Origin: a virus
IMG/VR virus record: IMGVR_UViG_3300025151_000159
Coordinates: 1 to 32,831 of that record
Reading direction: 5' to 3' (one strand)
Length of the DNA stretch: 32,831 nt
Below the pieces are notes generated by a model, which was not told the origin of the DNA, made no database searches, and was given only the letters and a program-made list of their open reading frames with translations. Position numbers and translations under genes: made by a program. The stretch's first letter is position 1. Each line of letters begins with the position of its first letter. Below, piece by piece: positions 1,876 to 22,625 of the stretch.

Positions 1876-4800
1876 TCAAAGCAGGTATCCGAATCCTCTT
1901 GTTGTGAATGGATAAAGTGTGCCACTGCCACTGGTTTGAGAAATCGTGATATCACCGTTGGCGGCAGTAACAGTTAGACCAGTACCAGCGGTAATATTAG
2001 TAACACCTTCGTTAACAATAGTTGCGTTGGTAATTCCTGTTGCCATATCAAGAGACTTGGTGACAGAAATACCAGCGCCTGCTACTGCACTTTCAGTAGC
2101 AGCATAACCCCAAGAAAGATTACCAGAACCATCAGTCTTAAGTGCGTTTCCAGCACTTCCATCGTGAAGTGGCAGTCTGTAAGAGTAGTCTGCAGTTGTA
2201 GCACCGATACTTAAACCAATATAGTGACTATGGTCTTGGTCATAGATGCGGAGAGTGCTGCCAACAGAAACTTCACCTCTAACATCAAGAGCAGTTCCTG
2301 CAGTTACAGTATTAACACCAACATTTCCATTTATATCAATAATGAATGGAGTACTATCGGTTAGTTGGTTACTAACACTTACAATATTACCAGAACCGCT
2401 AGTTGATCTGATGCGAAGTGCTTCATCAGACTCGGTGTAAATATCAATTTTTGCATCTGGGTTTGCAATACCAACACCAAGAGAATTGCCTACAAAAACA
2501 TCAGTTCCATCAAATCTGAAGCTTTCGGAACCACCAAAGTTTCCAGAGCTATTAAACTGAACAGAGTTTGCAGGAGCACCAGGAGAACCAGTTCCTCCAG
2601 TAGCATCAAAGGTGACGCTTGCAATACCTGATGTATTGTATACTGCGGAAATAGTAACTCCATAACCAATGAAGTTAATTTCAGTTGCAACACCAACGAA
2701 AGTCTTATTCAGTCCAAGACCAGTAGAAACACCAACATTTAGTGGTGATGCATCTAAGATGACAGTTCCGACACCAGAAGTTGTGTCATATTCAGTTCTG
2801 ACGGTAGCACCAACACCTGAACGGAAGTCAATGTTCGTTGCAATACCCAAGTATTGTCCAGCGGAAGAAATTCCGACCATTGGATTATTAAGTGATCCAA
2901 GGAAACCAAATGGCTTCCATTCACTATTGGTTGTGTAAATCCAACCAGTGTATCCATTAGTAGCAGGAGTTCCGTTATATACAACATCACCAGGAGTGCC
3001 TGCCAATGTTGGTTGCGATACACCTACAGTAAACTTCCTCGATACTGATCTATCACCTTGTAAGAATAAAGAGTTTGCTTCAATACCTTTGGTAGATGTA
3101 GAAGTCAGTTTGTTGCTGAAGACAACAGGACCATCAAACTCGGAAACAATATCTCCATTAGGACCACCTTCAACTCTTAAGGAGCGTTCAATTGCTACTT
3201 CAGAAGAAGATACTCTATCAAAACCAACACTAGTATCAGAGGTAGGATCTTCGCCAGTTACAGTTGGAATGGGGATATCAAATACTTCTTCTTCACCAGT
3301 GGTTCCACTGACTTTCCTACCACCAACGTAGTAATCACCCTGGTCATTCATACCAGTGTAAAGTACCGCACCACTCTCTTTACGAGTTGCTTGTCCTAAG
3401 AACTCTTCTTGTGGAGTGAGGTTTCTAGTCTGTCTATCAGGGAATGCAGTAGAATAGTTACCAGGACCATATCCAACATATTCAAATGTATGACCTGATG
3501 CACGAATCAAAGAGTTTCTTCTAAACTCAATAGGACGTGGAGCAATCTTCGTTACAACAGCACCGTTTGAGTGTGTTGCTTTTCCTGTTCCGAGTAGTCC
3601 TCTGAATACAGAAACTGGGTTTCCAGTAACAGTACTCTTAATTCTCATAATCTCTTCATCGACCAGTAAGAAGTCACCAATCTGGAAGTTAAAGTTTTCT
3701 ACGTTGGAAATTTGAATGCTTGTTGCATTTGCATTATTAATGACAGCAGAGATAGTTGTCGTAATACCAGCATAGGTTGGAACAAATCTACCACCAAGGT
3801 TTTCATCAGACTTACTAGTATTGCCCGAGTTTGCAATAAAACCAGTCTTGTGTGCGTAGATAGAACCAGCAACTGAATGGTTGCCAGAGATACCAGCATT
3901 AACAACAAACTTTGTTTGACTGACAACTTGAGTAACATAGAAGTTTCTATTATAGAAACTATCTTCAGCACCACTCAGCAATACAGACTTACCAACTTGA
4001 AGATCGTGGTTTTGTACTGTTGTTACTGTTGCAATACCAGTTGATTGGGTGTAACTAATACCAGAGACATCTAATGCTTTACCCGTTAAGCGTGCATTTG
4101 AGTCCGAAGTAAATGTTGGACCAACACCAGATGTTGTTGCATTATTAACAGTGGATGCTGAAGAAACACTAACTTCTTTTGCAGAAGAAATACCAGTGAT
4201 GCGATAGTATCCATTATATCCAGCAAACGTGGTGCTTCCAACTCCATTAATCGACAGAGTTTCACCAACGTTATCAATAATAGTTGTGACACTTACAGTT
4301 GCAGCACTATGGGAAGTTGTGGTTGCAATACCAACAACTGTCATGGTATTACCAATACCATAAGCACTACCACCGTCCATAATCATAATGTCGGAGATAG
4401 TTCCTGCAGCACTTACAGTAACTCTGGCCGTTGCATTTACACCAGTTGAAGAACCTGCGTAACCAACAAGGTTTGCATTATAATAGTATTCGGTATTACC
4501 ACTACCAACACCATATCCAGCACCAGGATTAACAATACTTAAAGTTGCAGCAGGGTTGAGTCCGTGCTCAATATTGGAATACAGAGTATGAACTGTACCA
4601 GCGGCACCAGTAGAGATAATATCAGTAAGAGCAAAACCAACTCGGAAGTCATTCAGAGCTTTATTTAAAGTTTCTCTTGTAACACTGTTTTGTGGTTCAT
4701 CAATTACAACCTGACCAATTGTTGTTGGAAGTGCAAAAGAAGTTGATGCTTTTGGATCTGAAGTTGTATTATCTCTATTGAGTTGTGGATAGAGATTCTG

Positions 4801-7734
4801 GATAGGTTGAGAGAACTTCTCACCAGTAAATGGTGCAACAGTTGGTGAGTTAGAAGTATTAACAATTAACAGATGATAGATACCATCTTTCTCACCAGGA
4901 ACATACTTTTGAATTTCTTCACTCTTATAAACATAGTAAGAGTTAGAATATTGCTTATTCTTAAAGTATGGCAGTGAAGTAGTTCTGCTTGAAGTGTTGT
5001 TAGTAAACGTACCAGGATTAGTTGTCAAAGTAACACTAAACTCTTTAGCACTACCGACACTTACGACATCAAATGTATTGTTGAAACCAGTGTTAGCAGT
5101 ACCATCAAGGTTGTTTGTACTGGTAATGTTCAGAATCTCAACCTGAGAACCAACGTTAAGATCGTGTGGAAGTTCAGTTACAATGGTTGCAGTATTTGAT
5201 GTCCAACTTGCATCAGCAATAATTCTCTGGTTCCTTAACTCAGTAGAGTTAGAAAGAGTTGCGCCAAGTGGGTTGAACTGATATGCAACTTCAGTATTAG
5301 TAGAACCAATAGAAGTATTAGAGTTCTGAATTACAAATCCTTCAAGAGGTGGTTTAGCAGCAGTTGTTGAGTCAGAAGGAATTACATAACGAAGTCTATA
5401 AATGGTATCATCAATATTTCTAGTATCAGGTATTCTCTTGATGTATGTTCTTGGAGTTGCATCACCAATAGAGTTTGTTCCAAGGTCATTAAGAATACTG
5501 TAGATACCGTTTCCAGTTCCTGCAATAGATACATTTACATACCACTGAGAATTGGTTGCATCAAATTGAACTGGGTGCCCAGTGTCACCAGGAATCTTAT
5601 CAGAGACTCTACTGATAACATTAAGAGTGCCACCCTTATTATTAATCGTGAGTGGGTTTAAACCAATAGCATCGTTCAGAGTTTGTCCGACTTTTATTTG
5701 ATCAGAACCAATACCAGAAGTAATGGCAAAGTAAACTTGATTATTGTCAAGTCCATCAGGAACATGACCAGTATCAGAAATAATGCGAACACTTTCACCA
5801 TTTTCAAATGAGTGAGGGCCACTTAAAGTAATGGTGCTGTTGCTGATGCTGTTAATACCAGCGTTTCTACCAACAGTTGCAAGTTTTTCTGAAGTTGTAA
5901 ATGTAGTGTTTGGCATTACAATTAATGCCGAATACTCTGTGGAGATACCAGTAGCACCAGTGATAACAGTATTTAAAGTATCACTGACTTTTGCACCAAT
6001 ACGATAACCACCAACAATACCATCTGGTTTTACTGCTTGGTTAGTCTGTTCATAAAGATACAGACGATTTGTTAAACCCATTGCAGTGGTAAGACCAACA
6101 TCAATTGAGTTGTATTCAATAGTGGTCTCAGCGTTATCAATTGCTTTTGGTGGAAGGATGTGTGAAATATATCCAGCATCATCTCTAAGGAATGCATTCT
6201 TTCTAAAACCACTTGCAACTAACGCTCTGGCACCAAAGTTGGAGTTAGAGTTTGTAATTGACTGGTCACCACCAGACTCTGAAAGGAAGTGAGATGCATA
6301 ACCAATAGCAAAGACCGAAACGACCTGAATATAAGAGTCGTTAGAAGTCTTGAGGTGATAGTTTTCGTACTCTGGTTTGTATCTAGCAAGTCCATCAGTA
6401 TGAAGGTTTTCTACTACGGTAGAGTCTTCATATAAACCAGTAGTAGTATTATATTTTACGAATGCTTTATCATCTTTCTGCAGTCCAATACCCGTAAACT
6501 GGGCAACAACCATGGACTTAAATCCATCTGCCTTGTTACCATCAGCGTGCAGACCACACATACCGTATACAGAACGGAGTGAGCAGTTGAAAATGTAAGG
6601 AGAAGCAGAGGTTACAGTATCAACAGAGATATTGAGAGTAGAACCAGATACTGAAGGGAGTGCATTTGCTGGAGTATTTGAAACCTGATATTCAATTACA
6701 GGTTGAGCACCAGTTGCAAGAACATCAGAGACTACATACTCACCATCATATCCAGCAGAACCAATTCCTTTAATTCTAATAGGAGTATCAACATCAACTC
6801 CAGCAAGTTCACCTGCTAAAGTAACAGTAATAGTAGTACTTGCAGTTATACCATCTCCAGCACGGATACTCGAAATACCAACTTCAGCACCACGGGAACC
6901 TACGATACGATACTCATCAACCTTGGGTTGAATATCAAGTCCTGCAGCAGGATAATCTGGAGAAATGTTTCTTCCAGATGCCTGACCATATACCAGACCA
7001 ACTTTCTGATAATACATATCCAGATCAGTTCTAGTAGTAGAATAGGTCTGGAAGTCATCATCAATACTTACACTATTGACACCATCAGCATACTCAAAAG
7101 TAGTCAGTTTGTGGTGTGAGAAGTTAGGAACAAATCTGTTCTCAGTGTAGTCCTTATAGCACGTCCCATTTGGTGGAGCATCAAGTACAGAGAACTGCCA
7201 GAAGTAGCAACCACCAGTTACACGGAAAACAGCAGATCTTTCGATCTCGTCATTTTCTGGGTTAGGAACATAAAGTGGTCGGATAACAGTCTTACGAAGA
7301 TCCATACCAACGATGGATGTACCTCTGGGAACAATGACACCACCGTAAACACTGTTTAACTTATACAGTTCATTATCAACAGTCGTCAGGTCAAAGTTTG
7401 ACGTAAGATCAAAAGATGGGAGGTTATTTGACGTTAAACCATTACGAAGTCTATAATTATTTGCACCATCTGGTATCCATCCTGGTCGGTTATCCACAAC
7501 GTGATCACCAGGGTACAACACGATAGTTGTTTTGTTAAATCTATCGTTATCTAAACCACTTTGATAGGAAAAACGTGACGCTTCTATCAAAGCTCTTTGA
7601 ATAGTTCTAAAAGGTCTGGTAAGACTATTGCCCTGGTTTTCGACGCTATCAGTAGCATCGATACTGTTAGGATCAACGTAAAGTATAGTACCACGAACCG
7701 ACTTCAGAAAATTATCTAATCTGGAAAGACCCAT
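1876..7734 (-). CDS. Giant tail-fibre or baseplate-associated structural protein (1952 aa)
   Basis: The N-terminus (MGLSRLDNFLKSVRGTILYV, then PFRTIQRALIEASRFSYQ near residue 40) is a recognisable cyanophage virion protein start that leads into a pectate-lyase-like right-handed beta-helix region. At least five copies of a loose module (hydrophobic strand, HDL or similar, VG..V.I.G, F/Y-NG-F/Y.V, then S.KEF.V) lie near residues 300-360, 630-690, 845-910, 1150-1210 and 1232-1290. A stretch with NPGAGYG near residue 1070 resembles the DPG.GY repeats of the protein at 12171-13199. The C-terminal 400 residues are fibre-like (GVGIANPDAKIDI, AGTGLTVT) and end RGFGYLL. A late box and a terminator lie upstream, so it is a separate late transcript. 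The exact virion location is not decidable here. Confidence 0.85.
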   Translation of the reverse strand: MGLSRLDNFLKSVRGTILYVDPNSIDATDSVENQGNSLTRPFRTIQRALIEASRFSYQSGLDNDRFNKTTIVLYPGDHVVDNRPGWIPDGANNYRLRNGLTSNNLPSFDLTSNFDLTTVDNELYKLNSVYGGVIVPRGTSIVGMDLRKTVIRPLYVPNPENDEIERSAVFRVTGGCYFWQFSVLDAPPNGTCYKDYTENRFVPNFSHHKLTTFEYADGVNSVSIDDDFQTYSTTRTDLDMYYQKVGLVYGQASGRNISPDYPAAGLDIQPKVDEYRIVGSRGAEVGISSIRAGDGITASTTITVTLAGELAGVDVDTPIRIKGIGSAGYDGEYVVSDVLATGAQPVIEYQVSNTPANALPSVSGSTLNISVDTVTSASPYIFNCSLRSVYGMCGLHADGNKADGFKSMVVAQFTGIGLQKDDKAFVKYNTTTGLYEDSTVVENLHTDGLARYKPEYENYHLKTSNDSYIQVVSVFAIGYASHFLSESGGDQSITNSNSNFGARALVASGFRKNAFLRDDAGYISHILPPKAIDNAETTIEYNSIDVGLTTAMGLTNRLYLYEQTNQAVKPDGIVGGYRIGAKVSDTLNTVITGATGISTEYSALIVMPNTTFTTSEKLATVGRNAGINSISNSTITLSGPHSFENGESVRIISDTGHVPDGLDNNQVYFAITSGIGSDQIKVGQTLNDAIGLNPLTINNKGGTLNVISRVSDKIPGDTGHPVQFDATNSQWYVNVSIAGTGNGIYSILNDLGTNSIGDATPRTYIKRIPDTRNIDDTIYRLRYVIPSDSTTAAKPPLEGFVIQNSNTSIGSTNTEVAYQFNPLGATLSNSTELRNQRIIADASWTSNTATIVTELPHDLNVGSQVEILNITSTNNLDGTANTGFNNTFDVVSVGSAKEFSVTLTTNPGTFTNNTSSRTTSLPYFKNKQYSNSYYVYKSEEIQKYVPGEKDGIYHLLIVNTSNSPTVAPFTGEKFSQPIQNLYPQLNRDNTTSDPKASTSFALPTTIGQVVIDEPQNSVTRETLNKALNDFRVGFALTDIISTGAAGTVHTLYSNIEHGLNPAATLSIVNPGAGYGVGSGNTEYYYNANLVGYAGSSTGVNATARVTVSAAGTISDIMIMDGGSAYGIGNTMTVVGIATTTSHSAATVSVTTIIDNVGETLSINGVGSTTFAGYNGYYRITGISSAKEVSVSSASTVNNATTSGVGPTFTSDSNARLTGKALDVSGISYTQSTGIATVTTVQNHDLQVGKSVLLSGAEDSFYNRNFYVTQVVSQTKFVVNAGISGNHSVAGSIYAHKTGFIANSGNTSKSDENLGGRFVPTYAGITTTISAVINNANATSIQISNVENFNFQIGDFLLVDEEIMRIKSTVTGNPVSVFRGLLGTGKATHSNGAVVTKIAPRPIEFRRNSLIRASGHTFEYVGYGPGNYSTAFPDRQTRNLTPQEEFLGQATRKESGAVLYTGMNDQGDYYVGGRKVSGTTGEEEVFDIPIPTVTGEDPTSDTSVGFDRVSSSEVAIERSLRVEGGPNGDIVSEFDGPVVFSNKLTSTSTKGIEANSLFLQGDRSVSRKFTVGVSQPTLAGTPGDVVYNGTPATNGYTGWIYTTNSEWKPFGFLGSLNNPMVGISSAGQYLGIATNIDFRSGVGATVRTEYDTTSGVGTVILDASPLNVGVSTGLGLNKTFVGVATEINFIGYGVTISAVYNTSGIASVTFDATGGTGSPGAPANSVQFNSSGNFGGSESFRFDGTDVFVGNSLGVGIANPDAKIDIYTESDEALRIRSTSGSGNIVSVSNQLTDSTPFIIDINGNVGVNTVTAGTALDVRGEVSVGSTLRIYDQDHSHYIGLSIGATTADYSYRLPLHDGSAGNALKTDGSGNLSWGYAATESAVAGAGISVTKSLDMATGITNATIVNEGVTNITAGTGLTVTAANGDITISQTSGSGTLYPFTTRGFGYLL

Positions 7735-8453: not shown

Positions 8454-9083
8454 TTATTGCCAACGGGGACCATTCACCCATCCTACCAAACTTCTACGAA
8501 CACCACTTCGGACTTTTGTGACTCGGTGTTGTGCCCGTGAATCAAAGATAATCAAGGTGCCTTTCTTCTTTGGTGCATAGTAAGAATCATTTTCGTCACT
8601 CAAAAACTGAAGTTCTCCACCTTCATAATCAGATTCATCAGATAGTTGAAGAGAAAATGAAAGTTTACGGGAGGTCTCATACTGAAGTCCAATGTTTTCA
8701 TTTACATATGCAGCAGAGACTCCACCAAACTCATTTGATAGGGTAGAAACTGACATAGTACATCGAGCACTAATGGAGTCATCACAATGCCAGTTGTAGT
8801 GTTGACCTTCTTTATATTCACTATACTGAAGACAGTCGGCATCAAACCCGTCAATAGCATACTTAAAATTCTTCTTATTGATATAGTCGATATAATAATT
8901 AAGGAAACCAGCAATCCAATGATCTACATTAACCCAAGAGTTATCAGTGTTTCTAATCTTTTTATTTTCTTCAGGAGAAATAATTTTTGACTTTTCTGTT
9001 TCTAGTTTAGAAAATTTTTCTACAATTTCATCAATAATGATATCTGGAAGTTCAGTATCCAGAAATACACTCTGAAATGCCAT
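8454..9083 (-). CDS. 2-oxoglutarate/Fe(II)-dependent oxygenase, prolyl-4-hydroxylase/PiuC type
   Basis: 209 residues. The iron triad is visible: H99-x-D101 (in NWHCDD) and H186 (in QHRVTKV), with R196 of GVRRSLVGW placed to bind 2-oxoglutarate. YEGGELQF (153-160) and GTLIIFDS (175-182) are typical strands of the double-stranded beta-helix fold. Such enzymes hydroxylate or demethylate proteins, nucleic acids or small molecules; the substrate cannot be read here. Cyanophages commonly carry several oxygenases, and this window has a second at 28121. It is coupled to the Mom-like gene (zero gap), so a role in DNA or ribosomal-protein modification is possible but inferred. Confidence 0.85.
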   Translation of the reverse strand: MAFQSVFLDTELPDIIIDEIVEKFSKLETEKSKIISPEENKKIRNTDNSWVNVDHWIAGFLNYYIDYINKKNFKYAIDGFDADCLQYSEYKEGQHYNWHCDDSISARCTMSVSTLSNEFGGVSAAYVNENIGLQYETSRKLSFSLQLSDESDYEGGELQFLSDENDSYYAPKKKGTLIIFDSRAQHRVTKVRSGVRRSLVGWVNGPRWQ

Positions 9084-9091
9084 TTTTTTAA

Positions 9092-9265
9092 TTACTTTTT
9101 CGATTCACTATATTCTAACATATACTCTACAGTATTGGCAACATCTTCCATTGCATCTCTTAACTGTTTTTGACCACCAGAATGTTGCTCCATGTCCATC
9201 TGTGGATCGGTGAGTGTCCATCTCCACTGTTTCATGCACTTGTTGTACCAAAGATTTATGACCAT
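9092..9265 (-). CDS. Small conserved cyanophage protein, unknown function (57 aa)
   Basis: The frame translates MVINLWYNKCMKQWRWTLTD at the start and ends EYMLEYSESKK. AAAGAGG lies 5 bases before the ATG, an excellent ribosome site, and the gene fits tightly between its neighbours (8-base gap to the oxygenase start, 9 to the upstream stop). The N-terminal third is rich in Trp and basic residues and the C-terminal half is acidic and helical. No known domain is recognised. It is co-transcribed with the tRNAs and the oxygenase. Confidence 0.75.
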   Translation of the reverse strand: MVINLWYNKCMKQWRWTLTDPQMDMEQHSGGQKQLRDAMEDVANTVEYMLEYSESKK

Positions 9266-9274
9266 AAAACCTCT

Positions 9275-9544
9275 TTAATCGACGGGCATCATTTCTGGGT
9301 TTTCTAACTCAAGTTCAAACATTAATGGATGGAATTCTTCTTGCACCAGATAAAATGATGCTTTAAATAAATCTTCTTGTTCCCATCGTTTTTCGCCATC
9401 AGCAATATCTATTAGACTTAAATCATAAAGACCATCGTCTGGAAGTTCATCAAAGGTGAATGGAATTCCTTGTATGAAATACATTAGGACTATTTGTCTT
9501 CCTTCGTTATACCAAACGTATCTGGTATCTATCCGGTATTTCAT
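9275..9544 (-). CDS. Hypothetical protein (89 aa) of the early cassette
   Basis: The sequence starts MKYRIDTRYVWYNEGRQIVL and ends NPEMMPVD; it is acidic (pI clearly below 7) with mixed alpha/beta character. It is the first protein gene after the two tRNAs. The ATG is directly preceded by a small dyad (GGGAC-A-GTCCC) and no clear Shine-Dalgarno sequence is visible, so translation may depend on RNA structure. No family is recognised. Confidence 0.7.
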   Translation of the reverse strand: MKYRIDTRYVWYNEGRQIVLMYFIQGIPFTFDELPDDGLYDLSLIDIADGEKRWEQEDLFKASFYLVQEEFHPLMFELELENPEMMPVD

Positions 9545-10116: not shown

Positions 10117-10145
10117 ATTATAGGGCATCCAGGGGGTGGTGTCAA
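10117..10145 (-). promoter_or_regulatory. Perfect sigma-70 promoter TTGACA-N17-TATAAT
   Basis: The minus strand has TTGACA at 10145-10140 and TATAAT at 10122-10117, with exactly 17 bases between. Both hexamers are full consensus. The TGA inside TTGACA is the stop codon of the virion gene at 10142-10789. The transcript should start near 10110 and cover the two small genes, both tRNAs, two more small genes, the oxygenase and the Mom-like gene, to the terminator at 7777-7800. Confidence 0.9.
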
Positions 10146-10789
10146 TAGTCAAAACCAGAAATTGAGAACTGGTCTTTGCTGCCTGGGTAGTCTACTGGAG
10201 TCGCTCCCTCATATTCAACAATGAGTTTCTCACCGTCAATACGGGAAGCATGAATGGTGTAGTAGCAGTCAATAGCAGCTGCGTTTCCAGACCGTACCTT
10301 TATTCCCGCACCCCAGTTTTCAAAACCATCTACAATTAAGTCTTGTGATGAACCTATCTGAGTCAGAGAGACTGTAATAGATTCAAGATCAATAAGTCCT
10401 TTCCAATATTCTGGTAGGTTAATTGTATTTGAACCAGTCAGTCTACCTCGAACATAAACACCTGCTTCTGGTCCTTCTAAGCAGATATGTCTCAGTCTAT
10501 GATTTTCTTTATTGGGATGTATAATATCAAACCCTTTCCAAGACTGAACATTGATGTTTCCTTGAAAAGTTGGAAAAGTACATGTACCCCCACCATCAAT
10601 ATCATTGGTAACATCTATGTCATCAAACTTTACTTTTACTTGAAGATATCTTTCGCAAGCATCATCAGGATAGTCTTCATCACCTGTATGGGTTCTATGA
10701 ATATAGTCAAAGTCAGGATGCTTAGTTCCTTCAATAGGTTTATCGCAGTTTTTAGTACCTATGTCTTTTTCTTTAAAATTTTCAGGCAT
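10142..10789 (-). CDS. Virion fibre-like protein, paralog of the next upstream gene (215 aa)
   Basis: The C-terminal 120 residues share a domain with the 266-aa neighbour: FDIIHPNKENHRLRH, C.EGPE..VYVRGRLTG, LPEYWKGLID, IDCYYTIHASR and DGEKLIVEYEG..PVDYPG. This RLRH/EGPE/RGRL block recurs in phage tail-fibre and adhesin proteins. The N-terminal 80 residues are unrelated to the paralog and Asp-rich. The start overlaps the stop of the neighbour (TAATG), with AAAGGAG just upstream. It is the last gene of the late minus-strand block; its stop lies inside the -35 box of the early promoter. Confidence 0.75.
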   Translation of the reverse strand: MPENFKEKDIGTKNCDKPIEGTKHPDFDYIHRTHTGDEDYPDDACERYLQVKVKFDDIDVTNDIDGGGTCTFPTFQGNINVQSWKGFDIIHPNKENHRLRHICLEGPEAGVYVRGRLTGSNTINLPEYWKGLIDLESITVSLTQIGSSQDLIVDGFENWGAGIKVRSGNAAAIDCYYTIHASRIDGEKLIVEYEGATPVDYPGSKDQFSISGFDY

Positions 10790-11589
10790 TATTCATTCTC
10801 CTTTGTGTCATAGTGGTAACCAGAAACTGAATACTCATCGTTGTTTCCAGGGTAATCTGTGGGTGTTTCGCCAGGATATTCTACAATGAGTTTTTCTCCA
10901 TCCTTTCGTTCAGCAAAGATATGATAGAAGCAGTCAATGGGCATATTGCCTTTGGACTGTAAATATACTTTCTCATCATCCCACCGTTTGATAATGATAT
11001 CTTGATGTGCTCCAATAGCAGTCAGAGTAATACTTAAAGAACGTTCATCAACCAAACCTTTCCAATATTCAGGAAGTTCAATCTCAGTTTTACCTGTAAG
11101 TCTACCACGAATATAAACGTCGTTTGAAGGACCTTCAGGGCACGTATGGCGCAGTCTCCAACCCTCTTTAGTTGGGTGAGGAATATCAAAGTTTTTCTTT
11201 GCAGATAAAATATGCTTACCACAGCGAGACCTTACTTCACCTTGGGCATCAATATCTTTACCAGCAGCAATATTTACTGATACGTCAAGGTTATCTAGAA
11301 TAGCAGCATCACCAATAACACCCAAAGAGTATGGGTTGTTGAGACCAGTACAAAGACCACCAGGAATAGAAGGGTCTTCACTCTGGTTATTTTCAAGTGT
11401 ACCAACCATCAAGGTAGCCCAACGTGAAGGGAAGTCACCATCCTGTCCAATCTGAACTGGACCCTGAAGATAAGCAGCACCTGTAATAGGTTTACCACCA
11501 TTATCTACAATAGGTCTTGGTTTTGATACTTCACTTGTAACATACAGTGGACCAGAGATATGTTCTGGTCCGTGGTTTACTGAACTCAT
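10789..11589 (-). CDS. Virion fibre-like protein with EGPE/RGRL domain (266 aa)
   Basis: The N-terminal half (MSSVNHGPEHISGPLYVTSE...) is a glycine-rich attachment-like region, with IDAQGEVRSRCGKHILSAKK leading into the shared domain from about residue 135: FDIPHPTKEGWRLRHTCPEG, YIRGRLTG, LPEYWKGLVD, IDCFYHIFAERKDGEKLIVE, TDYPG. It is probably a fibre or baseplate-decorating protein; duplication with the downstream gene suggests diversification of a host-contact domain. Tightly packed: 6 bases after the upstream stop, AAAGAG as ribosome site. Confidence 0.75.
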   Translation of the reverse strand: MSSVNHGPEHISGPLYVTSEVSKPRPIVDNGGKPITGAAYLQGPVQIGQDGDFPSRWATLMVGTLENNQSEDPSIPGGLCTGLNNPYSLGVIGDAAILDNLDVSVNIAAGKDIDAQGEVRSRCGKHILSAKKNFDIPHPTKEGWRLRHTCPEGPSNDVYIRGRLTGKTEIELPEYWKGLVDERSLSITLTAIGAHQDIIIKRWDDEKVYLQSKGNMPIDCFYHIFAERKDGEKLIVEYPGETPTDYPGNNDEYSVSGYHYDTKENE

Positions 11590-16329: not shown

Positions 16330-18969
16330 TTATGCTGCTAACTGTTGAGCGATAGAACTGTTGTTAATATTTAAAGAACTTCCACCGCCGCCATTTGAGG
16401 CGACGAACCTAGTATTATTAACAACGGTTGTTTTAGGTACAATTATTACATTAGTCTGCCCATCACCATAGTCTGGTGTAGTAGTAAGACTTGCAATATC
16501 ACCACTCTTGTTTGGTTTGGCGATGTTTGCTTGTGTTTTAGATTTAGATATTCTATTTAAGAATTCTATTGGGTTCACAGTTCCCTGGAAACCAAATGTA
16601 CTGGTGCTACCTTTTCTTATCTCATAATGAAAGACACCTGTTTGTGATGTTCCAGTTTGAATTGCATCTCCAGGTTGAACCACATCACCAAGTTTTACGT
16701 GGTTATAGTCACCCTCTGCAATTCTTTCAACTACATTAAGGTCTTTATTGTAGATATCAACGTATTTACCATATCCACCTGGGTCAACGCCAATCTTAAT
16801 AACCTTTCCTCCAATTCTTGAATAGAAAGTATCATTTGTACCAGCATCAAAGTCAACACCAGCGTGCTTTCTATCTGGTATTCCATCCCTATTGTCATCT
16901 CTAGGAGCACCATAATTTTGTCCTGGTTTTGTATTCGTAGGAGGAAGTGCAGGAAGTCCTGATTGATCTATTACAGTTGGTCCACCTGATCCATTTGGTT
17001 CCGCAAATGTAAAAGGTTTTATTTCTTCTTCTTCTGAACCAAGAACAATATCCATAAATTTCTTTTGCCCTTCCCTGCTTTTTTTTACATTCGCTGCCTG
17101 AACAACACTATCATAAAGAGACTTTCCTAGAATATCACCAAGAATACCACCTCCAATACCACCAAGTAAAGTACCTGCAAGTGGTATTACAGATCCAATA
17201 GCAGCTCCAGCAGCAGATCCCAAAGCAGCACCGGCGGCACCAGCGGCAGCTCTAGTAATAGAATCTCCTGAAGCAATATTAAAAATGAAGTCAACAAGTG
17301 GACCTATAACAGGAACTTTACCAAGAAGTCTTGCAGCACCTTTACCACCCACTCTTATTGCAAGTCTTCTACCACTTCTACGAATACCTCTATCAAATAT
17401 TCCTGCCGGTCTTGCTGGTGCTGCAGGTTGTTCTAATACTCTAGGAGTAATACCTTCTCCTGGTCCTGGTATTGAAGGTCGTCTAAATCTTTGACCTTCT
17501 AATATTCTTTCTGCTCTCGCTCTTGGATTTCTATCAACTGGACTAGGAATATCCAAACTTGGGACATTAATTACTCTATCAATCTTACCTTTCTTTACCA
17601 GAATATCATATGCTGCTTTTCTTGTGAAGAAATCTTGTCCATCAACGTCATTTACAATTTTAATTAAATCTGTGGGTTGATATCCCAACTTCATAAAAGT
17701 TTTTTTAATTCTAGCAATTTCGGCACCAAAACCTTGTCCCAATAGTTGTGTACTGGTTAAAGGTCTTGGCGTTCTATCAGGTATTTTAATTTTTGTAGGT
17801 TTGCTTGATGCGGAGAACTTAGGAAATTTTTTGGATTTCTTAGGTCTTAATGGTTCATTTTTACCAACAACATTTCCAAAACCAACCGCTCTCAGAGTAT
17901 TTCTAGCAACATTTCTGCTAGAAGCATCATCCATAACACCAAGTCCAGCCCTTCTCAGTGCCTGATTTGCTGAATCTACGGCACCATCAACAATACTCTT
18001 TGCAATTGCTTTGTCTTTTGCTGATGTATAACTTTCTTTCTGTGCAATATATTGAAGAGCAAATGCTGGGTTTTTTAGTGCTTCTTTAGTTGGCAAATCT
18101 TTTGCTCTTGGCATACCCAAGCTAGTCCTCAGCATCATATTTGATACTCTTGCTCTAAAAGATGGGGCAGTATCTTTTACAGTCCTAGATGCATATCTAC
18201 TGTAATATCTACTACTATCAATACCAGAAGCAAGACTACCGCCACCACGAAGAGCATCTTTTACAGCATTAGGAGGACCACCTCTAAGACCAAGTATAGC
18301 ACCAGATATGAGTATACCACCACTAAGTAATTCACTAAAGTTATTAGTAAATTTGTCAAATGTTTCTTGATACCCTTCTGGTAATATATTATCAACCTGT
18401 TGTTTTAAAAAGTCAGCTGCTTTATACCCTCTATCAATAAATTCAGCAGTGTTATTAACAATATTACCAACAGTATTTGTAAAAAACTGCAATACTGGAG
18501 TAATTTTTTTAGCAAGGTTAATTAACTTTGGAAGGATAGGTATAATTCTATCTACCGCAAGTCCAAGAACACTATACAGAACAAACCTTCTGATGGTATC
18601 TAAGAATCCAGTTCTTGGCAATCTAAGAGTTGGAAGGTTACCACCAAACTTAAAAGTTCTTGACTCTATCTCTTTTTCTTTTTTACCTCTTCTTTCTCTT
18701 TCTTTTTCTAATCTTTGTTTTTGAGTTTTTCTTTTCTCAAGTTTTGTCTTTTCACCAAAGAGTTTTTCTGCCAGAATAAACTTATTCTTAAGTAAAGTAG
18801 TTTGTTCCTTAAGATCTTGTTGTTGTGGAGTTTTGATATCATCATCAACTTTTGCATATGTTCTAGTCGTGATGTTAGATGCAGGTACTAAGAAATTAGT
18901 AGCAACAAGAGAAGAACTTCCCTTTGATGGACCCGAAGGTAATAGTCTTTTAGGATCTACTTTTTTCAT
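16330..18969 (-). CDS. Tape-measure-like tail protein with C-terminal M23 peptidase-like domain (879 aa)
   Basis: Residues 50-110 are a highly charged coiled coil (KTQKQRLEKERERRGKKEKE). Hydrophobic helices follow at about 120-165 and 215-230, and a glycine-zipper run at 566-616 (AAAGAAGAALGSAAGAA, LLGGIGGGILGDILG) that could insert into a membrane. The C-terminus has an M23/LytM fold: zinc ligands H702 and D706 (HAGVDFD), H757 in DYNH, and H781 in FHYEIR. The usual HxH is VFH, so the catalytic histidine is V779. It may locally cut or only bind peptidoglycan during DNA entry. One base separates it from the preceding tape-like gene. Confidence 0.75.
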   Translation of the reverse strand: MKKVDPKRLLPSGPSKGSSSLVATNFLVPASNITTRTYAKVDDDIKTPQQQDLKEQTTLLKNKFILAEKLFGEKTKLEKRKTQKQRLEKERERRGKKEKEIESRTFKFGGNLPTLRLPRTGFLDTIRRFVLYSVLGLAVDRIIPILPKLINLAKKITPVLQFFTNTVGNIVNNTAEFIDRGYKAADFLKQQVDNILPEGYQETFDKFTNNFSELLSGGILISGAILGLRGGPPNAVKDALRGGGSLASGIDSSRYYSRYASRTVKDTAPSFRARVSNMMLRTSLGMPRAKDLPTKEALKNPAFALQYIAQKESYTSAKDKAIAKSIVDGAVDSANQALRRAGLGVMDDASSRNVARNTLRAVGFGNVVGKNEPLRPKKSKKFPKFSASSKPTKIKIPDRTPRPLTSTQLLGQGFGAEIARIKKTFMKLGYQPTDLIKIVNDVDGQDFFTRKAAYDILVKKGKIDRVINVPSLDIPSPVDRNPRARAERILEGQRFRRPSIPGPGEGITPRVLEQPAAPARPAGIFDRGIRRSGRRLAIRVGGKGAARLLGKVPVIGPLVDFIFNIASGDSITRAAAGAAGAALGSAAGAAIGSVIPLAGTLLGGIGGGILGDILGKSLYDSVVQAANVKKSREGQKKFMDIVLGSEEEEIKPFTFAEPNGSGGPTVIDQSGLPALPPTNTKPGQNYGAPRDDNRDGIPDRKHAGVDFDAGTNDTFYSRIGGKVIKIGVDPGGYGKYVDIYNKDLNVVERIAEGDYNHVKLGDVVQPGDAIQTGTSQTGVFHYEIRKGSTSTFGFQGTVNPIEFLNRISKSKTQANIAKPNKSGDIASLTTTPDYGDGQTNVIIVPKTTVVNNTRFVASNGGGGSSLNINNSSIAQQLAA

Positions 18970-18970
18970 A

Positions 18971-20896
18971 TCAGATCATCCCCTCTATTCCATAAACAGC
19001 AAAGTTAACAATTCTGCTATCACTTATTTGTGCTGCACTAAACGTTTCTGTATCTGCCGAGGGTGCCATCTGGGAAACTCCGCCGCTGCTATTCGTAATT
19101 TCAGGCAAAGTAGTTACATTCACTTTTGATCGTGCTGATGGCGGTTCAGGTGCAGTTTTTCTAATTTGACTTGGTGCCAACATACTATTACTGTATGTTA
19201 CTTTTGGTGTTGATGAACTTACACTAGCACTTGCAAATGATCTTCCACCAGATGGTTTCATCATATGGGGATGATAAGTTCCTTTTGCCTTAGGAACAAC
19301 AGAAGTGGTAGATCCACTCATTGCAGAGGTAACTGTAGATTCACTCCTTATAGAAGAAGTAGATCCACTCCGCGCAGAAGCAGACATAGACATTCTTGGT
19401 ATTGAAGGTGCCCTGAAAGCACCCATCGTGATTTCTGGCGACATCATACCACCAACAACTCCTCCACCTTGAGCAAGTTGAACTCCACTTGAAAACTTAG
19501 GAATGTTTGTCCCGCCTGCAATTTTATTCAAGTTCATAAAGAACTGAGGACCATAAGCATTCACTGCACGCTTAGATACAACAAATTCTCCAGGTTGTGC
19601 TGCAATGAGTTGAGTGTCAGGTCCTGCTCCAGTTATTTTGACGCCACTAGTTTGTCTAATAGGTCCACCAGACTGGAACGTTATGTCATTAACATTAGTT
19701 GCACTTTCTGGGGTAATAATATTCTTAATGTTGACTGGATTATTATTGGTAATGTTTTTTATAATATTTGGAACACTATCAACAATACCACCACCAAAGT
19801 ATGATGGAGTAACAGGTGTTTGAGGTTGTGTTGTTGGTTCTCTATCAGAGAACTGAAAAGGTTTTATTTCTGGTTCTGGTTCTGGATCTGGTGATTTAAA
19901 AGTAGAAGCTGCTGCACCAACACCAAGAAGACCAAGAGCACTTGCTATAACTTTATTTGCTTTGATAAGACCAAGAATTTTTGGTCCAAAGAATTTCAAT
20001 ACACCAAAAATACCACGAACAAATCCACCAAAAGGTGTGAAGAAGAATAATAATCCTCCAGTCAATAATGGCCAGAAGTCTTTTAAGAATCTGAAAATAG
20101 AGTCAACTTTTTGTCTGTTTTTGGGATCTGAGAACCATTTGAATAAAGACTGGAATGCAACACCTAAAAATGCCTTGAATAAGAAGTCAAATATTCTACT
20201 CAGTATTCCTCTAACTGGAGAGAATACCTTACTTACAACATTTGAAACTTTCTTCTGTTCTTTTTCAAGAAGTTTTTCTCTATCTGTTCTTCTCTTTCTT
20301 ATAGTTTGTCTTCTTTCTAACTCTGCTTGTCTTTTTTCTTCTTTATTATCTGCTCGTATTTCTGCAAGTATCTTATCTAAAGACTCATGAATATCCTTGA
20401 GATCTTCACTTACTTTCTTGACACCTGGACTTTCTGGTATTACTGCATTACCAGTCAGGAAAAACTTATCTTTTGATACTTTTAATGGAGTCGTTCCAGT
20501 AACTGCATTAACAGATGCTTTCTTTTTATTAAGTTTAAATCTTCCTACTTTACTCTTTATTCTTCTAAATTCATCCTGCAAGAGCATTTGCTCATCTCTT
20601 GCAAGTGAACCACCACCCACACTGACTTGTACAAGTTTCTCTTTTAGTAAAGTCTTATAAGTTGCATAGTCAATATCAAAAACTTGACCTATTGCTAATA
20701 TTCTTAGAATCCTTTCATCTATATACTCATCAACTAAATCAGTTTCCCTGGTCCCTTGATATAACGCTAGAGCACCACCACGCTTTTTCTTTCCTTCAGA
20801 TCTAATACCTTCCAACAACTCATCTAGTCCAGCGGGAGCTTCATCACCCTCTGAACGTATGCTTGCTAGTAGATCGTCTAAATCGTCAGGACCCAT
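18971..20896 (-). CDS. Tail tape-measure-like protein (641 aa)
   Basis: The N-terminus holds a short internal repeat (LDDLLASIRSEG / LDELLEGIRSEG, residues 6-35). A charged coiled coil lies at about 165-225 (EEKRQAELERRQTIRKRRTD), then strongly hydrophobic helices at about 235-262 and 278-335 that look membrane-active. The later part has GPDTQLIAAQPGEFVVSKRA and NAYGPQFFMNLNK, a block typical of tail tape-measure proteins, and a Ser/Thr-rich low-complexity stretch. It follows gene 26 and its gp51-like extension directly, as tape-measure genes follow their chaperones. It overlaps that small ORF by 11 bases. Confidence 0.75.
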   Translation of the reverse strand: MGPDDLDDLLASIRSEGDEAPAGLDELLEGIRSEGKKKRGGALALYQGTRETDLVDEYIDERILRILAIGQVFDIDYATYKTLLKEKLVQVSVGGGSLARDEQMLLQDEFRRIKSKVGRFKLNKKKASVNAVTGTTPLKVSKDKFFLTGNAVIPESPGVKKVSEDLKDIHESLDKILAEIRADNKEEKRQAELERRQTIRKRRTDREKLLEKEQKKVSNVVSKVFSPVRGILSRIFDFLFKAFLGVAFQSLFKWFSDPKNRQKVDSIFRFLKDFWPLLTGGLLFFFTPFGGFVRGIFGVLKFFGPKILGLIKANKVIASALGLLGVGAAASTFKSPDPEPEPEIKPFQFSDREPTTQPQTPVTPSYFGGGIVDSVPNIIKNITNNNPVNIKNIITPESATNVNDITFQSGGPIRQTSGVKITGAGPDTQLIAAQPGEFVVSKRAVNAYGPQFFMNLNKIAGGTNIPKFSSGVQLAQGGGVVGGMMSPEITMGAFRAPSIPRMSMSASARSGSTSSIRSESTVTSAMSGSTTSVVPKAKGTYHPHMMKPSGGRSFASASVSSSTPKVTYSNSMLAPSQIRKTAPEPPSARSKVNVTTLPEITNSSGGVSQMAPSADTETFSAAQISDSRIVNFAVYGIEGMI

Positions 20897-21053
20897 TTTG
20901 TTGCTGCTTTAGTTTTTCTTCTTCTAAATGATTTTTCAACATAGCAACGTAAATATCACGCTCCCACGGCATCATATTTTCAATCTCTGTTAATGAATAT
21001 TTATGGTACTGCATTAACGAAAAATTGAGAGTGTAGAAGTTTTCAAGGTCCAT
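20886..21053 (-). CDS. gp51-like small protein / C-terminal extension of gp26 by frameshift (55 aa)
   Basis: The frame reads MDLENFYTLNFSLMQYHKYS, then MMPWERDIYVAMLKNHLEEE. The MPWERDIYV...L phrase is the hallmark of the small second half of tail-assembly chaperone pairs. In T4 the comparable small protein is gp51 (hub assembly catalyst). Its ATG is buried in a hairpin (GGTCC-ATAT-GGACC) and has no ribosome site, while the -1 frame of gene 26 runs straight into it. So it is probably made mainly as a gp26 fusion of about 299 residues. Independent initiation cannot be excluded. Confidence 0.75.
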   Translation of the reverse strand: MDLENFYTLNFSLMQYHKYSLTEIENMMPWERDIYVAMLKNHLEEEKLKQQQNGS

Positions 21054-21077
21054 ATGGACCAGGGCTATCCGAAAAAA
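21047..21077 (-). promoter_or_regulatory. Candidate programmed -1 frameshift site at the end of gene 26
   Basis: The minus strand has the heptamer T TTT TTC (21077-21071) in the correct X XXY YYZ phase of gene 26, two codons before its TAG. After a -1 slip the frame continues CGG ATA GCC CTG GTC CAT and then ATG GAC of the small ORF, with no stop. Ten bases after the heptamer lies GGTCC-ATAT-GGACC, a 14-bp palindrome (21060-21047) able to form a stimulatory hairpin. Confidence 0.7.
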
Positions 21078-21784
21078 CTAGCAAGTCCTTCCAGTACAAC
21101 AGTGCTTTCTACCCCAGTGTTTGGATTTTTCACAGTAATATCATGAGACAGTTTAGGCATCGTCTCAAAGAACTTTTCAACCTGTTTAAACTGTTTGGAG
21201 TTCATTTGCTCCAAGAAGTCATTCATTTCTTTCTTGGTCACATCAGCAGTAGACCAGACTTCTTCTTCATTATAAATCTTATCAACACAAGAAGAAATCA
21301 GTTCAAAGGACTGTTCCATTGAGTTCTCTGTGCTGAAATCAAAGTTACTCTTGATAAACTGTTCCAGAGATGGATACTTCATCTCCATAATCAATGAGTT
21401 ATCAAGTTGAATTTTATTGCTATGCTCTTTGCTCTTTTGAACTTTGATATCATCAATATTCAACATAATAGGGACTGTAGTTTGTTCATCATCAGGACAG
21501 ATGACGTTTACTTCAATCTCTTCTCCTACAGACTTACCACGAATGTTGAGGAACAAATATTCAATGTCAAATGTAGGGAGAGTCTCAACTTTGATACCTC
21601 TAGTCTGAATACAGTTTTTGATAACTGCTTTCATCGCAGTGGTAATCTCTTTTGAGTTTTCACTTTCTAGTGCTAAAACCAGAAGTTTTTCTTCCCTTAC
21701 AAGAAATGGTCGGTATTGTACTTTTTTTCCAGTTGATGGTAAATTCAACTCATAAGTTGGTGTCGAAATCTTTGGTAATGGCAT
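21065..21784 (-). CDS. 26: Baseplate hub subunit gp26 / probable tape-measure chaperone (239 aa)
   Basis: The N-terminus PKISTPTYELNLPSTGKKVQYRPFLVREEK matches the T4 gp26 baseplate protein family (T4_baseplate in Pfam). The family phrases PFLVREEKLLVLALES and NIRGKSVGEEIEV are both present. The length is close to T4 gp26 (208). The C-terminus ends VVLEGLASFFG on a slippery sequence, so a minor fusion with the downstream gp51-like ORF is expected. In that case gp26 and the fusion would play the roles of lambda gpG and gpGT, coating the tape measure before tube growth. A late promoter box lies about 30 bases upstream. Confidence 0.85.
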   Translation of the reverse strand: MPLPKISTPTYELNLPSTGKKVQYRPFLVREEKLLVLALESENSKEITTAMKAVIKNCIQTRGIKVETLPTFDIEYLFLNIRGKSVGEEIEVNVICPDDEQTTVPIMLNIDDIKVQKSKEHSNKIQLDNSLIMEMKYPSLEQFIKSNFDFSTENSMEQSFELISSCVDKIYNEEEVWSTADVTKKEMNDFLEQMNSKQFKQVEKFFETMPKLSHDITVKNPNTGVESTVVLEGLASFFG

Positions 21785-21812: not shown

Positions 21813-21820
21813 TATTTATT
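21813..21820 (-). promoter_or_regulatory. Late promoter box AATAAATA before gene 26
   Basis: The minus strand reads AATAAATA, fitting NATAAATA, 29 bases before the gene 26 ATG. It overlaps the TAA stop of the upstream gene, so chance similarity is possible, but the distance is right for late initiation. Confidence 0.5.
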
Positions 21821-22625
21821 GAGTCTGTTGACCTCCAAGAATGTTGGGACCAAATTGTCTTCCACCTTGCGCCTCAAGTTGTTCAGCAAGCTGCGCTTGA
21901 GTAGGTCTTCCATCTTCAATAGTTACTCCTATACTAGGTTCTCCATTTGGTCTTTGTAATCTTATTTTTTTAGGTTCAAATCTAGGGTCCATAACATAAC
22001 GAGAGTAAGTAAAGTTTACTGTGCATTTTAATAATTCTGATGTATCATATCTAACAGGCATTGTTACTACACTAATTGGAAATGCCTTTAAAAATTTATA
22101 TTCTAAACAAGCACCGGTATTTTCATAGTCTCTTTCAAACTTTGTAATGTATAGGTTGTCAGTTTGATACTGTTTTGGATATCTTACTCTATAAAAATAG
22201 TTATTTTCTAGAATACCAGGGTCAGTTTTATACTGCTCTCCAACAATATATGACATCCAGTTTTCAAAAAACTTAATTATAGTGTAATCATGATCAACCA
22301 TAAACGTAAAACTAGCACGTTCATCATATTCTCTACGATATGCATGTCTCTCAGTAACTCCCGTAAAATCATTATTAATTGTGTGAGTCATAAGAGACGA
22401 ACCAGGAAGTGCAGCCTCAGCACAAGATAACTCAATAAGTTCTTGATTATCTCTAGTATAAGGTGTTCCTTTTTCTTTAGTCCAGTCTTTTACTGATTGT
22501 GGTGGCGCAAACTTACACATATAATTGGATGTAAGGGCAGGTCTTAACAACCTACTTTTAATTTCGCTTAGTTTTCTTGTTCTATTGTCTGGACCACCAG
22601 AAGAATTAGTGGGTCTATCTGCCAT
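21816..22625 (-). CDS. Tail-tube-fold baseplate protein, gp54-like candidate (269 aa)
   Basis: Segments SRLLRPALTSNYMCKF, LIELSCAEAALPGSSLMTH, ERHAYRREYDERASFTFMVD, FFENWMSYIVGEQ and LEYKFLKAFPISVV..PV.YD have the order of tube-fold proteins: an N-terminal strand, a loop after the PG turn, R.Y..D..SFTF strands, an F..W helix, then the C-terminal strands. T4 gp54 (tail-tube initiator) and gp19 share this fold. With gp48 encoded just beyond the divergent promoter region, gp54 is the likely role. The C-terminal 40 residues are Gln/Gly-rich. Confidence 0.6.
   Translation of the reverse strand: MADRPTNSSGGPDNRTRKLSEIKSRLLRPALTSNYMCKFAPPQSVKDWTKEKGTPYTRDNQELIELSCAEAALPGSSLMTHTINNDFTGVTERHAYRREYDERASFTFMVDHDYTIIKFFENWMSYIVGEQYKTDPGILENNYFYRVRYPKQYQTDNLYITKFERDYENTGACLEYKFLKAFPISVVTMPVRYDTSELLKCTVNFTYSRYVMDPRFEPKKIRLQRPNGEPSIGVTIEDGRPTQAQLAEQLEAQGGRQFGPNILGGQQTQ

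Follow-up and report, generated by a model that had tools for sequence, protein, structure and literature searches.

Gene 26 of a T4-like marine cyanophage contig very probably ends in a programmed −1 ribosomal frameshift that extends a putative tail chaperone into the 'gene 51' region

A programmed −1 frameshift very probably operates at the end of gene 26 in the virus record analysed here (32,831 bases in all, hereafter the window), which carries a T4-like cyanophage tail module on its minus strand. Most ribosomes would end at the gene 26 stop and release a short chaperone (TAC-N, like lambda gpG), and a minority would slip back by one base on U UUU UUC, with both tRNA-Phe re-pairing to UUU UUU, probably aided by an RNA hairpin about 10 nt downstream. 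The slipped ribosomes would then continue along the linker RIALVH, enter the '51' region and finish a long chaperone of 299 aa (TAC-NC, like gpGT). If lambda is a guide, the short form would coat the tape measure protein, and tail tube subunits would be recruited by the long form through its C-terminal domain. More broadly, the short/long chaperone device of the lambda type very probably runs through marine cyanophages.

The gene order on the upstream side of the site is clear. Gene 26 (21065..21784, minus strand), which encodes 239 aa and matches PF12322 (E=2.1e-75) and phrog_150 (E=2.6e-80), follows directly on the gene for the tail tube protein (21816..22625, minus strand; PF23849, phrog_45). 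Among the matches listed from a phage collection, its product is closest to that of Marine virus AG-345-E08 (77%), followed at 60-75% identity by those of Synechococcus and Prochlorococcus phages and of other marine single-cell viruses. Conventional annotation starting from the first ATG places a 55-codon 'gene 51' ORF after it (20886..21053, minus strand; 55 aa), with matches to phrog_634 (E=2.2e-26) and to the C-terminal columns 241-280 of phrog_150 (E=9.6e-6). Just downstream, and sharing 11 nt with the end of the −1 frame, lies a gene for a 641-aa product (18971..20896, minus strand) that had been called tape-measure-like. Its position and weak matches to tape-measure families of PHROG (E=1.4e-5 and 3.1e-4) lend that label some weight, but an unknown-function family (3.3e-40) and two families named endolysin outrank those matches, and a Pfam search of the product returned no match, leaving the tape measure assignment weakly supported. 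The next gene in transcription order (16330-18969, minus strand) encodes a product of 879 aa that includes an M23 peptidase domain. Elsewhere in the window, a 1952-aa tail fibre protein (1876-7734; phrog_529) is encoded near a 2OG-Fe(II) oxygenase-like ORF (8454-9083). Two adjoining ORFs, 10142-10789 and 10789-11589, share matches to phrog_17490 and phrog_28536, and by sequence they look like tandem paralogues.

Gene 26 ends in GCT AGT TTT TTC GGA TAG. The heptamer T TTT TTC (21071..21077, minus strand) is in phase, as the first-pass annotation described it, with the single codon GGA between it and the stop. After a slip the −1 frame would read TTT TTT CGG ATA GCC CTG GTC CAT ATG GAC; that is, six stop-free codons (CGG ATA GCC CTG GTC CAT) lead in frame to the ATG of the 55-codon ORF, and the sequence bears out this reading as well. 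The C-terminal part added by the slip (TAC-C, gpT-like; 20886..21071, minus strand) comprises 61 codons and a stop, its ORF matches phrog_634 and phrog_150, and it aligns with the C-terminal domain of T4 gp51. The predicted fusion of 238 gp26 residues with 61 residues from the −1 frame has the 299 aa foreseen earlier and contains GLASFFRIALVHMDLENF.

Within the window, the last 10 codons of 24 selected ORFs hold one T6 run, that of gene 26, against a chance expectation of about 0.15 in-phase T TTT TTY for these ORFs combined. Other heptamers of the form XXXYYYZ in the same stretches are AAACCCA, AAAAAAG and AAAAAAT, followed by 62, 3 and 0 open −1 codons, respectively. The first of these stands in phase eight codons before the stop of ORF 9275-9544 (minus strand), where the −1 frame stays open for 62 codons towards ORF 9092-9265; it is a weak heptamer and probably a chance occurrence. 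Taken alone, then, the T TTT TTC of the window is suggestive. The ATG of the 55-codon ORF was said to have no ribosome site, and indeed no Shine-Dalgarno-like stretch precedes it. This is weak evidence, because four other window starts inspected by eye have at most weak Shine-Dalgarno-like stretches too.

Conservation makes the stronger case. The first-pass annotation looked to the 26/51 junctions of relatives for a conserved heptamer, phase and stop-free −1 frame, and nearly all loci retain these features. All of the 80 close viral-contig relatives, which are the best 80 of 134 loci, carry TTTTTTC in phase ahead of the gene 26 stop. In a wider pool, 192 of 195 readable loci have an in-phase T6 (TTTTTTC in 181, TTTTTTT in 11, no T6 in 3). 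This pool takes in cyanophages, Pelagibacter phage HTVC008M, Sinorhizobium phiM7, Stenotrophomonas Mendera, Aeromonas and Vibrio Straboviridae, Desulfovibrio phage 7757 and others. Locus searches covered the best 80 of 134 and the best 80 of at least 570 confirmed loci, and scans of viral contigs with a Vibrio-type and a Pelagibacter-type query gave 2 and 11 loci, respectively. The 195 rows derive from 199 pooled sequences after omission of T4 (L090), RB43 (L194) and the window itself (L184), which had no plus-strand match with the query set, and of one truncated sequence (L180). Two phages are present twice, HTVC008M (L084, L172) and KVP40 (L183, L198), and counts are therefore also given on clustered representatives.

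Clustering at 80% protein identity yields 50 representatives, which are mutually related, and for that reason a p-value is withheld. Phe-Phe is encoded within the last 11 codons in 47 of them. A spelling test that starts from these codons and takes the other Phe-Phe pairs of the genes as control finds T TTT TTY at 47 of 47 pairs near the stop and at 1 of 49 control pairs (last 150 codons). The codon preceding the pair varies among two Ser codon boxes, Asp, Asn, Gly and Ala (AGT 24, TCT 10, GAT 7, AAT 4, GGT 1, GCT 1), yet its third base is T throughout, against background T-ending fractions of 0.60 for Ser, 0.80 for Asp, 0.74 for Asn, 0.55 for Gly and 0.42 for Ala. Selection therefore acts on the bases of the heptamer and not only on a Ser-Phe-Phe peptide. 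A chance origin of the site is ruled out by its conservation across the 50 representatives.

The −1 frame downstream of the site is likewise maintained. Following T6 in the 192 loci, it runs without a stop for 40 codons or more in 183, reaches the contig end while still open in 7 and is blocked in 2. Of the 42 representatives with the most frequent layout, 40 have no −1 stop within the 76 nt compared, and 37 have stops in the +1 frame. The linker itself was compared where T6 lies exactly three codons before the stop, over 66 nt downstream (174 loci, 110 distinct sequences, 42 representatives). Upstream of the ATG, a His codon recurs in 34 of the 42 representatives (CAT 25, CAC 9), and a Met or Leu codon is present in 40 (ATG 23, CTN 17). 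Judged from such sequence comparisons, the stretch from the gene 26 stop to the ATG holds its −1 protein meaning while its codons change silently.

A few relatives depart from this pattern. One of the two blocked loci is a metagenome contig (L034), with a −1 stop after 14 codons. The other belongs to Synechococcus phage S-SCSM1 (L082:3200-3245), in which 11 extra bases follow the gene 26 stop and place '51' in the +1 register with TTTTTTC intact; either a sequencing error or loss or replacement of the frameshift would account for it. Both Phe-Phe and T6 are missing from Vibrio K475, Pseudomonas Cygsa01 and Escherichia AV101 (L089, L193, L195), which are distant relatives. Their −1 frame is still open and their second gene starts in a TAATG overlap, and another route may therefore act there; from the sequences, re-initiation is a possible third way to the C-terminal domain. 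KVP40 has both T6 and a TAATG overlap, so re-initiation could also act in that phage.

A candidate stimulatory structure is best judged at the level of the region. The fold energy of 53-nt windows was scanned at 31 offsets in the 42 representatives, with 100 dinucleotide shuffles each, and its minimum falls on the window that directly follows the heptamer (mean z −1.73; 18 of 42 below −2), compared with z between −0.91 and +0.37 at the other 30 offsets. This region-wide peak is better evidence for structure than the exact 5-bp hairpin of the window. The hairpins vary by lineage, with long stems in P-SSM2-like phages, S-PM2 and S-ShM2 and a 5-bp stem in the clade of the window. In the window, the candidate hairpin described in the first pass, GGUCC-AUAU-GGACC (21047..21060, minus strand), begins 10 nt 3' of the heptamer. 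It was thought to hide the ATG of the 55-codon ORF and does so only partly, the AT lying in the loop and the G in the stem. The 37-nt piece of the window folds at −8.6 kcal/mol, and z-scores of three stretches (−1.26, −0.86 and −0.65) make it no more stable than many shuffles.

Comparison among relatives gives the hairpin of the window modest support within its clade. Its five pairs are all intact in 23 of 44 distinct close sequences and in 27 of 110 distinct canonical-class sequences, and the latter count shows that a hairpin with exactly these 5 bp is not universal. Across the 44 distinct sequences that share CA-Y-ATG, the hairpin is 85.9% paired, a value reached by 1 of 500 shuffles, and its covariation score is reached by 4 of 500; three other measures are unexceptional (284/500, 55/500 and 220/500). 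Two-sided changes affect 2 pairs only, and the shuffle control takes no account of kinship. Part of the palindrome (CCATATGG) may simply be a consequence of His-Met-Asp coding. On balance, this hairpin is somewhat favoured as a stimulator of slippage.

Several other routes to the C-terminal domain can be weighed against these results. Ribosomes that terminate on gene 26 might re-initiate at the ATG just past it and make a free 55-aa gp51, as GenBank annotates; such coupling of two separate proteins draws on the close spacing of the two reading frames, since in 76 of 80 close loci a distance of 14 nt separates the first aligned gp51 residue from the stop of gene 26, counted to the first base of that stop (of the other four, L034 differs and three have no gp51 match), and on in-frame ATG codons that overlap or adjoin the stop in Vibrio, Stenotrophomonas, Sinorhizobium and Vi01-like relatives. 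It also accords with the annotation of 23 feature-bearing records (L081-L090, L185-L191, L193-L198), drawn from T4 and 23 of the matches listed; none of the 23 records has a joined 26/51 CDS, and where these have the frameshift layout, 51 is annotated separately, truncated or absent. Coupling does not account, however, for the writing of Phe-Phe as T TTT TTY, for the constant −1 register or for the coding constraint upstream of the ATG. Moreover, ATG, GTG and TTG are all missing from −1 codons 0-13 in 10 of 47 representatives despite conserved '51' domain residues there, and nine of these are in register, the tenth being S-SCSM1. In GenBank, the 'gene 51' of HTVC008M, Syn19 and S-P4 begins late and lacks conserved residues, and ACG-2014j, DSL-LC03 and AsFcp_4 list no gene at the '51' region (AsFcp_4 has a TTG only). 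Two-protein coupling is therefore very unlikely, and a separate gene 51 as the sole product of the region is eliminated by the −1 coding constraint upstream of the ATG together with the startless lineages. The 20886..21053 ORF probably does not function as a separate gene, or not mainly, to judge by these comparisons.

Frameshifting could instead coexist with re-initiation, the former giving the long chaperone and the latter, at the hairpin ATG, a third product, the C-terminal domain on its own. An ATG is indeed present at −1 codon 8 in 19 of 42 representatives and at codon 5 in 23 of 42, but it is missing in other lineages of the same layout, and the Met is perhaps kept merely as a residue of the fusion. 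Use of both routes seems unlikely, and slightly more doubtful still is the version in which the cyanophage clade makes three products and the hairpin links access to the start with the rate of slipping. Least credible of all is slippage of RNA polymerase on the T6 run, with mixed transcripts yielding the fusion. The run is homopolymeric and extends to seven or more T in 11 of 195 loci, but six T is short for transcriptional slippage, in 181 of 195 loci the next base is C, and the codon phase and downstream structure peak fit ribosomal slippage. A programmed −1 ribosomal frameshift thus remains the strongly preferred reading.

The assignment of gp26 and its fusion as a chaperone pair, already made in the first pass, draws on homology to T4 proteins published as chaperones, on position and on predicted fold, and is held to be highly likely. 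An AlphaFold2 model of gp26, built from an alignment of 28 sequences (the window and 27 of 28 references, L034 left out), has a pLDDT of 85.9 and a pTM of 0.79. Residues 1-96 were compared by VIA-align 2 and gave rbstp2171 (3fgx; Z 8.0), HK97 gp13 (2ob9; 7.9) and YqbN (3klu; 7.3) as top matches over 84-86 residues, followed by Z 5.5 at rank 4 and Z 2.2 at rank 5; Z under 8 may reflect just a common arrangement. All three top matches are named as tail assembly chaperones in the relevant portion of PMC9603447. The fourth-ranked match (Z 5.5) is PDB 5ir0, ORF19 of a Vibrio cholerae PICI-like element, and the comparison with the model hints that a phage satellite perhaps carries a chaperone-like protein. 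Foldseek against the PDB with the gp26 model found no match at E <= 0.001, with HK97 chaperone chains at ranks 5 and 6 (E 1.2 and 1.6), a profile search of PDB sequences gave chance matches only (best E 0.083), and an NCBIfam search gave nothing above its cut-off. The predicted fold thus offers independent support for the chaperone reading that is not conclusive.

The first-pass annotation regarded the device as undescribed for 26/51 genes of T4 type. In this it was mistaken: Vladimirov, Gautam and Davidson (Virology 566:9-15) reportedly proposed in 2022 that frameshifting is apparently conserved in several T4-like groups, with T4 using genes 26 and 51. According to the passages that cite Vladimirov et al. 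2022, poly-T frameshift signals are known in the TAC-N genes of T4-like phages (PMC12846349), and some T4-like phages have one short and one longer fused gene and no frameshifting (PRFect, PMC10885494). To the extent that these citing passages convey it, a −1 frameshift chaperone in T4-like phages is already published, and the cyanophage case is right rather than new. The phages treated in PMC12846349 and PMC10885494 share, as described there, the poly-T slippery site in the TAC-N gene and the short and long forms with the window, which differs in being an uncultivated contig related to marine cyanophages. Among the papers listed by a literature search that lacked most subscription journals, none deals specifically with the cyanophage site. 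In 11 cyanophage records (Kyanoviridae, hosts Synechococcus or Prochlorococcus), 'gene 51' is separate, truncated or left out, and in such phages the ORF should instead be entered as the C-terminal portion of a joined CDS.

T4 itself, in which the T6 at the gene 26 end is absent, appears to encode the short and long forms as two genes. Its gp26 and gp51 are homologous to the window proteins (PF12322, phrog_150): gp26 (208 aa) covers positions 14-235 of phrog_150 and gp51 (249 aa) positions 13-280, the two align with each other by BLASTP alone (E=1.7e-6, 20% identity), and gp51 aligns continuously, in one frame, across the junction of the cyanophage fusion. The phrog_150 coverage and this alignment therefore point to a short and a long paralogue in T4, set against one gene with a slip site in the cyanophages. 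The gp51 of T4 thus resembles an in-frame long form and its gp26 a short form, not a frameshift pair, which supports the published view of the two as a two-gene version of the frameshift pair. The ORF that had been called gp51-like corresponds, by alignment, to the C-terminal domain of T4 gp51 and not to the whole protein. The window record, a 32.8-kb fragment, holds one PF12322 gene with its '51' part out of frame; within this fragment, therefore, no second copy in the manner of T4 is seen.

Beyond T4-like phages, chaperones of Vandenendeviridae and Andersonviridae, exemplified by phage Adele, are described in part of PMC12846349 as using a −1 frameshift with an invariant GTTTTT and an open −1 frame. 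The shared −1 shift and open frame are a likeness by description, in different phage families. In lambda, the gene order is tail tube, chaperone and tape measure, as it would be here with the putative tape measure gene, and the slippery sequence, G GGA AAG, differs from the T6C of gene 26. The gpG/gpGT frameshift is a −1 slip close to the end of the short chaperone gene, as set out in the relevant part of PMC5009743, and the proposed slip in gene 26 would take the same place; the likeness between the two systems is thus one of layout and predicted fold.
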